A stretch of 64,000 nt of DNA from Flavobacterium sp. (lineage in GTDB: Bacteria > Bacteroidota > Bacteroidia > Flavobacteriales > Flavobacteriaceae), in assembly GCA_010365135.1 (NCBI GenBank), contig JAAFGY010000003.1:1-64000 (forward strand), written 5' to 3'. A program made the position numbers and the translations under genes. Of this stretch, positions 24,007 through 53,016 are shown in pieces. A model generated the notes under the pieces. It saw only the letters and a list, made by a program, of their open reading frames with translations. It had not been told where the DNA came from and ran no database searches. Within the stretch, counting starts at the first letter, position 1. Each line of letters starts with the position of its first letter.

Positions 24007-24049
24007 GTAAAATTATATTTGTTATGTGGAAAGGGAGAATTTTCGCGTG

Positions 24050-24156
24050 GTTATCTTTTCCCGATAAATCGAGATAGAATGTAGCACCTTTTTCGCTGAA
24101 AAGGAATAGGTTGCTAAGCTTTCGTCGGGTCTATTCCCTCTGGCTTTCGTGATAAC
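24050..24156 (-). ncRNA. SAM-I riboswitch upstream of metH
   Basis: GTTATCACGAAAGCCAGAGGGAATAGACCCGACGAAAGCTTAGCAACCTATTCC...GGTGCTACATTCTATC...GGGAAAAGATAAC; conserved AGGGA/GACCC.GA/GCAACC/GGTGCTA core and a P1 of GUUAUC/GAUAAC. Confidence 0.93.
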
Positions 24157-24226
24157 AATCAATAAATGTAGGAACGCTGCAAAGTACGTACATAGCGCGA
24201 TTAATTGCAAGTATTCAAGGTATATT

Positions 24227-31933: not shown

Positions 31934-32344
31934 CTAAAATGAGATATCTGCCAAAGAATTATTTTCCAATATCATCAAAGTATTATCCCGAACTTCGGTC
32001 ATCAATTTATGCACGGAACATTTGGCTTCATCGACACAATCGTCGCATTTTTCGTAGAAATTATGACTCACGCAAGGCAATAAAGCTATTGGTCCTTCGA
32101 GAATGCGATAGACTTTGGCCATATTGATGTCCTTTGGGTCTTTTATTAAATAGTAACCGCCACCTTTTCCTTTTTTGGCACCCAAAAAACCGGAATGGCG
32201 CAAAAGCAACAGAATGCTTTCCAGAAATTTTATCGAAATATGTTCTGCTTTTGCAATATCAGCAATAGCAACTGGTGTTTGATCTTCTTGGCGAGCCAAA
32301 AAGGTCAACGCTTTGATTCCGTATTTTGTTTTTTTTGAGAGCAT
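31934..32344 (-). CDS. Rrf2-family transcriptional regulator
   Basis: MLSKKTKYGIKALTFLARQ...FLESILLLLRHSGFLGAKKGKGGGYYL; C-terminal cysteines CVSHNFYEKCDDCVDEAKCSVH. Confidence 0.92.
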   Translation of the reverse strand: MLSKKTKYGIKALTFLARQEDQTPVAIADIAKAEHISIKFLESILLLLRHSGFLGAKKGKGGGYYLIKDPKDINMAKVYRILEGPIALLPCVSHNFYEKCDDCVDEAKCSVHKLMTEVRDNTLMILENNSLADISF

Positions 32345-39126: not shown

Positions 39127-39232
39127 TTGTTATCTTTTCCCAATTAATCGGGATAGAATGTAGCACCTTCTTCTTTTGCAAAGGGTTGCTAAGCTTTCAT
39201 TGGGTCTATTCCCTCGAGCTTTCTTTATAACA
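39127..39232 (-). ncRNA. SAM-I riboswitch upstream of metX-thrA
   Basis: TGTTATAAAGAAAGCTCGAGGGAATAGACCCAATGAAAGCTTAGCAACCC...AAGGTGCTACATTCTATCCCGATTAATTGGGAAAAGATAACA; same core as 24050..24156. Confidence 0.92.
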
Positions 39233-39400
39233 TTTCAGTACGTTTGTGAACTTATTGGGGCAAATTAACTACTATTTTTTTAAACAACCAAATTTTAGGC
39301 TGTTTGGTTTTTTGCTGAAATTAAAAAAGCATTGGCAAAAGCCTACTTAAAGACTCTCGCCGTTGCTAGTTTTACATCCACGTTTTTATTCTAACTTTCA

Positions 39401-39613
39401 TTAGATAAAAAGCGTTTCGTTTTCTTCAGAATACATTTGGTGAAACAAAGAATTTGGAACTTTGCCTTTAGCAGAAGTTTGTTTTAAATTCACACCAAAT
39501 TTGGTATGCGTGAATTCAAAATGATCTGAATTACCTGTATTCGTTTTTGATTTTATATTCAAACTTTTGAAAAAGTGAATTATTGTGATTAAAATATATT
39601 TTAGAGTTTTCAT
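39401..39613 (-). CDS. Small hypothetical protein
   Basis: 70 aa ORF; no known motif. Confidence 0.35.
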   Translation of the reverse strand: MKTLKYILITIIHFFKSLNIKSKTNTGNSDHFEFTHTKFGVNLKQTSAKGKVPNSLFHQMYSEENETLFI

Positions 39614-39693: not shown

Positions 39694-40974
39694 TTATACT
39701 TTTAAATTTTCGAAAACCGCTTTTAAATCGGCCTTCAAATCTTCGATGTCTTCTAATCCCACCGAGAGTCGGATTAAATCCTTGGTGACTCCTGTTGCGA
39801 CCTGTTCGGCATCTGACAACTGCTGATGCGTGGTACTTGCTGGATGAATAATCAAAGATTTTGTGTCTCCAATATTGGCCAAAAGCGAAAATAGCTTGGT
39901 TTCATCGGCTACTTTCTTGGCGGCTTCAAATCCTCCTTTAAGGCCGAAAGTTAGCAATCCGTTTTGTCCTTTAGGTAAATATTGTGTTGCCAAATCGTAA
40001 TATTTACTGGACTTTAAACCCGGATAATTCACCCAAGCCACTTGATCTTGACTTTCTAACCATTGTGCTAATTCCAATCCATTTTCACTGTGCTTCTGGA
40101 CGCGAATTGGCAAAGTTTCTAATCCCTGAATAATCTGGAACGCGTTAAACGGACTTAAAGCTGCTCCGTAATCCCGCAAACCTTCAATTCGAACTTTGGC
40201 AATAAAAGCTGCATTTCCAAGAGCTTCATGATAAACTAATCCGTGATAACTGCCCGAGGGTTCGGTAAATTCAGGAAATTTTCCGCTGCTCCAATCAAAT
40301 GTTCCCGCATCGATAACAGCTCCACCAAGTGAAGTTCCGTTTCCTGCAATATACTTGGTCAAGGAATGAATTACAATATTCGCTCCGTGCTCGATTGGGT
40401 TCAACAAATAAGGAGATGGAACCGTATTATCGACAATAAATGGCACTTTAAGCGCTTTGGCCGCAGCCGAAATCGCTTTCAAATCCAAGACATCTAATTT
40501 TGGATTTCCTAAACTTTCTGCAAAGAATACTTTGGTATTTTCGTTGGCTGCTTTCGTAAAATTGCTGGCATCCGATGGATCTACAAACGTGGTTGTGATT
40601 CCTAATCTTGGCAAAGTGTTGCTAAACAAATTGTATGTACCACCGTACAAACTATTAGAGGCTACTATGTGATCTCCGGTCTTTAGTAAAACCAACAATG
40701 AAGTGGCGATGGCTGCCGTTCCTGATGCGGTAACTACTGCTGCAATTCCTCCTTCGAGAGCTGCTAAACGTTGTTCTAGTATATCGTTTGTTGGATTATT
40801 TAATCTGGTATATATAAATCCCGCTTCGGCAAGTCCAAATAAATTGGCCGCATGATCCGAATTATCAAATACATAAGAACTAGTTTGATAAATGGGCACC
40901 GCTCTGGTTCCTGCTGTTTTAGTGACGTCATGACCTGCGTGTAATGCGTTTGTTGCGAATTTTGGAGTACTCAT
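39694..40974 (-). CDS. metY: O-acetylhomoserine aminocarboxypropyltransferase/cysteine synthase
   Basis: FATNALHAGHDVTKTAGTRAVPIYQTSSYVFDNSDHAANLFGL; HSLTKYIAGNGTSLGG. Confidence 0.95.
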   Translation of the reverse strand: MSTPKFATNALHAGHDVTKTAGTRAVPIYQTSSYVFDNSDHAANLFGLAEAGFIYTRLNNPTNDILEQRLAALEGGIAAVVTASGTAAIATSLLVLLKTGDHIVASNSLYGGTYNLFSNTLPRLGITTTFVDPSDASNFTKAANENTKVFFAESLGNPKLDVLDLKAISAAAKALKVPFIVDNTVPSPYLLNPIEHGANIVIHSLTKYIAGNGTSLGGAVIDAGTFDWSSGKFPEFTEPSGSYHGLVYHEALGNAAFIAKVRIEGLRDYGAALSPFNAFQIIQGLETLPIRVQKHSENGLELAQWLESQDQVAWVNYPGLKSSKYYDLATQYLPKGQNGLLTFGLKGGFEAAKKVADETKLFSLLANIGDTKSLIIHPASTTHQQLSDAEQVATGVTKDLIRLSVGLEDIEDLKADLKAVFENLKV

Positions 40975-41030: not shown

Positions 41031-41065
41031 AAAAACCCTTTTAGAAAAATGTCCAAAAGGGTTTT
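41031..41065 (-). terminator. Intrinsic terminator between the proximal Met/Cys leader peptide and metY
   Basis: Minus strand AAAACCCTTTTGGACATTTTTCTAAAAGGGTTTTTGATTTTT. Confidence 0.88.
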
Positions 41066-41094
41066 AAGTTTTATCTTAACTTTTACTTTCGGAA

Positions 41095-41184
41095 TCAACA
41101 GACACAAACAGACATCATGGATTTTGCACAAATCATCGATTTGACATTGCAGGTGTTCATTTGTTTTTGCGGTAAAATGTTCAT
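41095..41184 (-). CDS. Met/Cys-rich leader peptide MNILPQKQMNTCNVKSMICAKSMMSVCVC
   Basis: 30-codon ORF upstream of metY; 5 Met and 4 Cys in 29 aa; followed by a terminator. Confidence 0.82.
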   Translation of the reverse strand: MNILPQKQMNTCNVKSMICAKSMMSVCVC

Positions 41185-41212
41185 TGTATTTATAGTTTGT
41201 GATTAATGATAT

Positions 41213-41251
41213 TCAAAAAAAAAGCCTCCCGTTTTGTGGGAAGCTTTTTGC
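41213..41251 (-). terminator. Intrinsic terminator after the distal Met/Cys leader peptide
   Basis: Minus strand AAAAAGCTTCCCACAAAACGGGAGGCTTTTTTTTT. Confidence 0.88.
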
Positions 41252-41272
41252 TATGTAATTTTGATTTAAAAT

Positions 41273-41341
41273 CTAAGCAATAAACGACCCACAGGATTTT
41301 TCCTGCATCGATTTTGAAATATTGCAAACATTAAAATTCAT
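41273..41341 (-). CDS. Distal leader peptide MNFNVCNISKSMQEKSCGSFIA
   Basis: 23-codon ORF related in sequence to the proximal leader (TGCAAT..CAAA.TCGATG...AAATCC); contains internal hairpin CAGGA-AAAA-TCCTG. Confidence 0.7.
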   Translation of the reverse strand: MNFNVCNISKSMQEKSCGSFIA

Positions 41342-41525: not shown

Positions 41526-41538
41526 CACTCGAAATATT

Positions 41539-41590
41539 AGAGGAAAAATTTGAACTGATTGCAACCTCGTTAAAAAAATGCTAAAGCAGC
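41539..41590 (+). ncRNA. SAM-II riboswitch upstream of metK
   Basis: AGAGGAAAAATTTGAACTGATTGCAACCTCGTTAAAAAAATGCTAAAGCAGC: P1 GAGG/CCTC, loop AUUU...AUUGCA, 3' GUUAAA...GCUAAAG and CUG/CAG pseudoknot potential. Confidence 0.85.
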
Positions 41591-41656
41591 AACTCTCCTT
41601 TAGTGTTTCCCCCGCAATCCATTTTTTTCTCGCTTAATTTAAAAAATTATATTATT

Positions 41657-52860: not shown

Positions 52861-52873
52861 AATTTCGTTTTTT

Positions 52874-53016
52874 AGCCCTGATGGAAATGGAAAGCCTTTT
52901 GAAAAAAACGGCTAATTTTTGTGGAGCAATAAAAGCGACCGCAGGAAGCTCTTTAGGGCTCTTACAAAAATAGCCGTTTTTGAAAAAGCTTGCAATGTAC
53001 AGCAGGATTGGCTTCT
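52874..53016 (+). ncRNA. Structured intergenic element, possibly a Flavo-1-like RNA
   Basis: AGCCCTGATGGAAATGGAAAGCC...AAAAACGGCTAATTTTTGT-GGAGCAATAAAAGCGACCGCAGGAAGCTC...ACAAAAATAGCCGTTTTT...GCAATGTACAGCAGGATTGGCTT; long inverted repeat around a GC-richer core; family assignment from memory. Confidence 0.5.

Follow-up and report, generated by a model that had tools for sequence, protein, structure and literature searches.

Putative Met/Cys leader-peptide attenuators in series upstream of metY in Flavobacterium

Amino acid attenuators of enteric bacteria (trp, his, leu, ilv, phe and thr; Rfam Phe_leader RF01859 and Thr_leader RF00506) comprise a short ORF carrying regulatory codons, helices 1:2, 2:3 and 3:4 that exclude one another, and an intrinsic terminator, all ahead of a biosynthetic gene. 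The leader upstream of metY in the Flavobacterium genome described here has the same organization, but it uses Met and Cys codons, contains two units in series and lies outside the Phe_leader and Thr_leader sequence families, which score 30.5 and 27.1 bits, respectively, against a gathering cut-off of 55. To our knowledge, methionine does not figure among the classically attenuated amino acids, perhaps because AUG serves as the start codon of every protein as well. Methionine genes are attenuated by S-box (SAM-I, RF00162) and Met T-box RNAs as well; these sense SAM or uncharged tRNA directly, and neither matches the metY leader here.

Within the Bacteroidetes, the Bacteroid-trp RNA (RF01692) is read as a trp leader; it belongs to a different gene and has no Rfam match in the DNA that we analysed. 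PMC2864571 lists it as a putative cis-regulatory RNA of Bacteroidetes. Cys-codon leader ORFs have been predicted before sulfur-assimilation genes in mycobacteria and Actinobacteria, where conserved terminator hairpins were not found (PMC1262725), and the polycysteine ORF of M. smegmatis is described as a case of translation attenuation (PMC13236596, citing Canestrari 2020). Unlike the metY leader, the mycobacterial polycysteine ORFs lack Met codons, and they belong to another phylum. A transcriptome of F. psychrophilum, a member of the same genus as our locus, gave clues to leader peptides, short peptides that precede operons for amino-acid biosynthesis; no met gene is mentioned in its main text (PMC9723704). 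Mg2+ transporters provide a known case of tandem attenuators (cited in PMC4974804). The original prediction for this locus knew of no described system of its type in Bacteroidetes. This needs narrowing, because leader-type RNA itself is known there (PMC2864571, PMC9723704), but in the main text of open-licence papers we found no attenuator with methionine codons and no serial pair of leader peptides. Amino-acid leader attenuation is already known; methionine specificity and two leaders in series appear to be the new elements.

The window, by which we mean the whole 64,000-nucleotide stretch of DNA analysed, carries two short ORFs on the minus strand of its metK-metY intergenic region. Each is followed by an intrinsic terminator, and metY then starts at 40974; position and letters are as originally predicted. 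The metY-distal ORF and terminator form unit A, and the proximal pair forms unit B. The features of the locus and the riboswitches around it are as follows.

41534-41594, plus strand: SAM-II riboswitch (long loop) before metK; Rfam match, RF01726
41361-41392, minus strand: candidate weak promoter-like pair TTTG-N20-GACATTTG, 20 nt ahead of ORF1; pattern match to the Bacteroidetes-type -33/-7 consensus
41273-41341, minus strand: unit A leader ORF (ORF1), MNFNVCNISKSMQEKSCGSFIA, with Cys6, Met12 and Cys17; aligned with the 22-aa leaders of relatives
41301-41307, minus strand: unit A segment 1 (UGCAGGA); its 1:2 hairpin has a like ORF position in nearly all relatives
41288-41296, minus strand: unit A segment 2 (UCCUGUGGG), with UGUGGG as the antiterminator half; pairing tests across loci
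41235-41240, minus strand: unit A segment 3 core (CCCACA) in the 5' arm of T1; 2:3 duplex energy
41219-41249, minus strand: terminator T1 of unit A, an intrinsic terminator hairpin; folding
41095-41184, minus strand: unit B leader ORF (ORF2), MNILPQKQMNTCNVKSMICAKSMMSVCVC, with four internal Met and four Cys; unit-B model matches at 61 of 80 metY loci
41086-41093, minus strand: unit B segment 2 (UCCGAAAG), antiterminator half, immediately 3' of the stop codon; duplex computation
41052-41059, minus strand: unit B segment 3 (CUUUUGGA), 5' side of T2; duplex with unit B segment 2
41032-41065, minus strand: terminator T2 of unit B; folding, and helix covariation in relatives
39694-40974, minus strand: metY, O-acetylhomoserine sulfhydrylase, the gene under putative control; TIGR01326, 634.7 bits against a cut-off of 495.1
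39127-39233 and 24048-24158, minus strand: SAM-I riboswitches before metX-thrA and upstream of metH; Rfam match, RF00162

T1 and T2 have hairpin folding energies of -16.1 and -16.6 kcal/mol, with z-scores of -5.3 and -5.0 against shuffles. Both strands of the window together contain 29 terminator-like hairpins, nine of which have an ATG ORF of 12-48 aa ending at most 60 nt upstream. When these nine pairs are ranked by Met plus Cys, units A and B are the top two and the other seven have at most two such residues each; no other ORF-plus-terminator unit in the 64 kb is Met/Cys-rich (at least three Met/Cys after the start). The gene downstream of these Met/Cys-coded leaders makes homocysteine. At the gathering score, no Rfam family matches the metY leader, SAM-I RF00162 and SAM-II RF01726 both being absent there, and no T-box was found in the window at that score or at E up to 5. 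The sulfur cluster of the window combines two SAM riboswitch classes, SAM-I and SAM-II.

The two ORFs had also been described as sharing DNA-level similarity, indicative of a cassette duplication. The motifs TGCAAT and CAAA.TCGATG are indeed present, but 724 of 2000 dinucleotide shuffles align equally well. Because the similarity is at chance level, duplication of ORF1 into ORF2 inside the window was rejected.

Each unit has four segments. Arm 1 lies by the Met/Cys codons, and arm 2, at the ORF end, pairs with either arm 1 or the 5' side of the terminator; covariation backs both of these pairings. In unit A, the CAGGA-AAAA-TCCTG hairpin and the TGTGGG:CCCACA pairing that had been pointed out from the sequence are both real. 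The 1:2 pairing of this unit reaches 0.88, compared to 0.67 when arms are exchanged between loci (0/2000), and arm 1 starts at ORF nucleotide 33-40 in nearly all loci, straight after the Met/Cys codons. The 2:3 duplex of unit A has an energy of -11.1 kcal/mol, compared to -8.2 with the arms of other loci and -5.5 with shuffled arms. In both units, a locus's own arm gives a stronger 2:3 antiterminator than an arm swapped in from another locus (p = 3e-7 for unit A and 2e-6 for unit B).

In unit B, segment 1 lies at codons 3-6 (CAAUAGCAAA and variants) and its partner segment 2 near the ORF end (UUUGCUGUUG), with the Met/Cys run as the loop. Arms 1 and 2 flank the regulatory codons, with the end of arm 2 at or beside the stop codon. 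The leader helices of this unit have 6 pairs and 17 two-sided changed cells, whereas shuffles give 2.3 pairs and 2.9 such cells (0/500). Segment 3, made up of CUUUUGG and terminator-loop bases such as UAAUAGC, pairs with the end of segment 2 (CCAAAAG or variants, in part together with preceding bases). An antiterminator had not been obvious in the proximal unit; there is one, however, formed in the window by UCCGAAAG (41093-41086) and CUUUUGGA (41059-41052) with an energy of -9.8 kcal/mol. Across 52 relatives, 99.8% of the cells in the T2 helix are paired, with 36 two-sided changes (0/500 shuffles). The 1:2 pairing of the window's own unit B is weaker and its segment 1 less clear than in relatives, and the folds give a long imperfect hairpin. 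Given the size of a ribosome footprint, the predicted geometry of the units fits the classical model, in which a ribosome on the Met/Cys codons would mask segment 1 and a ribosome at the stop codon would mask segment 2.

The leader ORFs carry a codon signal of their own. Met plus Cys accounts for 25.6% (unit A) and 37.5% (unit B) of frame 0. The corresponding values are 10-11% and 3-6% for the two remaining frames and 4-6% for shuffled sequences. Frame 0 is free of stops in all leader ORFs examined; stops occur in the other two frames of 43/45 and 24/45 unit-A sequences and of 62/62 and 53/62 unit-B sequences. Past the Met/Cys codons of unit A, the RNA is conserved rather than the peptide: some species read the segment 2 RNA CCGCAGAG as ..S-A-E.. 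and others as ..P-Q-R.., and the preceding codons stay Met/Cys. Such strongly conserved RNA segments, in a locus whose neighbors metK and metX use SAM-II and SAM-I riboswitches, could also belong to an undescribed metabolite-binding riboswitch with the ORFs as mere by-products. We consider this very improbable, because the in-frame Met/Cys bias, the open frames, the frame-independent segment 2 and the pathway-matched codons elsewhere in the phylum are codon effects, and the metY leader has no Rfam riboswitch match. Met/Cys-rich peptides can bind copper, and the products of the ORFs could themselves act in metal (copper) sensing or in nascent-chain arrest through Met/Cys motifs. This, too, is very improbable, in that the Met/Cys spacing varies, the sequence past the codons changes frame and the downstream genes serve Met/Cys synthesis rather than metal handling.

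We infer that two ribosome-mediated transcription attenuators in series very probably control metY by sensing the charging of Met (and Cys) tRNA. This reading is well supported because the units are conserved, the alternative pairings covary, related leaders stand at other sulfur genes and a His leader serves as a control. In each unit, the leader ORF would be translated at once as RNA polymerase makes the leader. Should charged tRNA-Met (and, in most leaders, tRNA-Cys) become scarce, the ribosome would stall on the Met/Cys codons and mask segment 1, so that segment 2 could pair with segment 3, no terminator would form and transcription would go on. With the tRNAs charged, the ribosome would reach the stop codon and cover segment 2, whereupon 3:4 would form and transcription would end. 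Transcription should likewise end if the ORF is not translated, through formation of 1:2 plus 3:4. Expression of metY would require passage of both T1 and T2, and the two units would therefore act as gates in series. Serial attenuation by Met-tRNA and/or Cys-tRNA charging had been the original reading, and the comparative data favor it with a refinement: because some relatives have Met-rich unit-A leaders without Cys (L096, MKLNTNIMSMMMWKVSARATIM; L105, MYRTINNMMRYMMMWRISAARSIA), Met appears to be the constant signal and Cys the variable one. Met is more likely than Cys to be the dominant tRNA signal.

The window's own unit A has few regulatory codons. Among the 22-residue unit-A leaders of relatives, 62-86% have Met or Cys at codons 8-12, and far richer leaders are typical (MNFTMCNMCMMMWNNPQRKPIA for unit A and MKTIAKRNMMCCEMMQMCIPICCCQK for unit B). 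At the conserved Met8, Cys9, Cys10 and Met11, the window's unit A has Ile, Ser, Lys and Ser instead. It retains Cys6 and Met12, the codon of the latter immediately preceding arm 1. Since it has just three Met/Cys codons beyond the start, and only about four bases are contested between its 1:2 and 2:3 helices, this unit may be a weak gate. The loss of most conserved codons would also suit a genome in which only unit B works as an attenuator, with unit A a degenerate copy that senses nothing and reduces expression through its terminator. In keeping with this, an early stop truncates the unit-A ORF in L012 and L017 (about 2640-2700), where the terminator and unit B are retained, an apparent decay of one gate. 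However, the 1:2 and 2:3 pairings of the window's unit A are intact, Cys6 and Met12 are still in place, and many relatives have unit A alone. We therefore judge decay of unit A to be unlikely and retain attenuation by both units as the preferred reading.

Conservation had been set beforehand as one point on which the prediction could fail. The ORFs, the Met/Cys codons, the stop position and the alternative hairpins are all kept across Flavobacterium and other Flavobacteriaceae genera. We fetched 80 loci with the closest MetY proteins blind to leader content, many of them from close relatives, and searched them with covariance models R2 (unit A) and R1 (unit B), whose structure E-values are rough. 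The models placed unit A before metY at 53 of the 80 loci, unit B at 61 and at least one unit at 78. At the remaining two (L080 and L081, from Aquimarina), a SAM-I riboswitch occupies the leader position before metY.

A family-wide sample of 251 genomes, mostly one per genus, gave a unit-A match at E < 1e-6 in 22 genomes; these adjoin metY or metX-thrA at every locus but one, which ends close to metK. Covariance-model matches that are weak (E about 1e-3) mostly represent chance terminators. At class level, two of four inspected matches (L161 and L162) had no Met/Cys leader. Leaders of metY occur in other families of the class (L163, L223 and L226). Distant metY genes mostly lack one, and among class-level loci outside the genus the leader was convincing only in L223 and L226.

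Related units stand ahead of other genes in other Flavobacteriia and Bacteroidia, namely metX, a Cys/Met PLP-enzyme gene (L165), cysH (L178 within the genus and L174 within the order) and a sulfite-reductase-like gene (L164, MINQNKMMCCCCKSTERWKW). Cys is more abundant in the leaders of some cys genes, with nine residues in the unit-B leader that precedes cysH in L174. Immediately upstream of hisG, the genome under study also has a leader rich in His, MLSIQLHHHHSHYCSQAMC, followed by a strong terminator (L084:1534-1660; G000:C164, about 31.25 kb). This leader serves as a natural positive control, and a unit match in another family of the phylum (L243) proved to be a His-rich leader before hisG, MTAKKLNTTHMHWHHIITFELAGG. 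The leader codons match the pathway, with Cys at some cys genes and His at his, and codon identity therefore follows the pathway. A leader directly before cysH was rejected as a general feature of Bacteroidia: 29 of 30 cysH loci of other Bacteroidia had no Met/Cys leader adjoining cysH, and the lone flagged locus (L208) looks like chance. cysH is frequently operon-internal, as it is in the window.

On the metX side, many Flavobacterium carry another A+B pair with a small conserved gene after it; in those scanned with Rfam, a SAM-I riboswitch lies before metX, 3' of this pair. Sequence identity and the tree both place the window's unit A closer to the metX-side type (84% to L014) than to the type common on the metY side, which suggests that A+B pairs have moved or been copied between metY and metX. 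Within the genus, the whole pair appears to have been duplicated between the two sides, with such short sequences giving the placement weak support. In the window, a conserved 65-70 aa protein with the C-terminus NSLLFLMYSKENETLFI or similar is encoded at 39401-39613 on the minus strand (also at L041:6233-6450). Its gene sits between the leaders or metY on one side and a SAM-I riboswitch on the other, and the protein has no Pfam or NCBIfam match.

Conserved Met-codon attenuators would place elongator Met-tRNA charging beside SAM sensing as a regulatory signal, and would provide a testable RNA regulon for Flavobacteriia, a group with few known promoters and regulators. They would also represent an evolutionary swap of a ligand-binding riboswitch and a translation-based sensor at one gene. 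For the broader reading, we see an even chance that Bacteroidota have a previously undescribed sulfur-amino-acid regulon of serial Met/Cys leader attenuators, duplicated between metY and metX, swapped with SAM-I riboswitches and, in many Flavobacterium, lying ahead of SAM-I at metX. If so, several RNA gates for Met-tRNA, Cys-tRNA and SAM would stand in series on one pathway.

Elsewhere in the window, a Flavo-1 RNA, a motif of unknown function that is common across Flavobacteriaceae, lies at 52870-53013 on the plus strand. An Rrf2-family regulator (CymR/IscR-like; 31937-32344, minus strand) is encoded first in a TSUP-cysH-cysD-cysN-sulfite reductase operon. The cys genes of the window thus seem to have a protein regulator (Rrf2) in place of the Met/Cys leaders found in some relatives.
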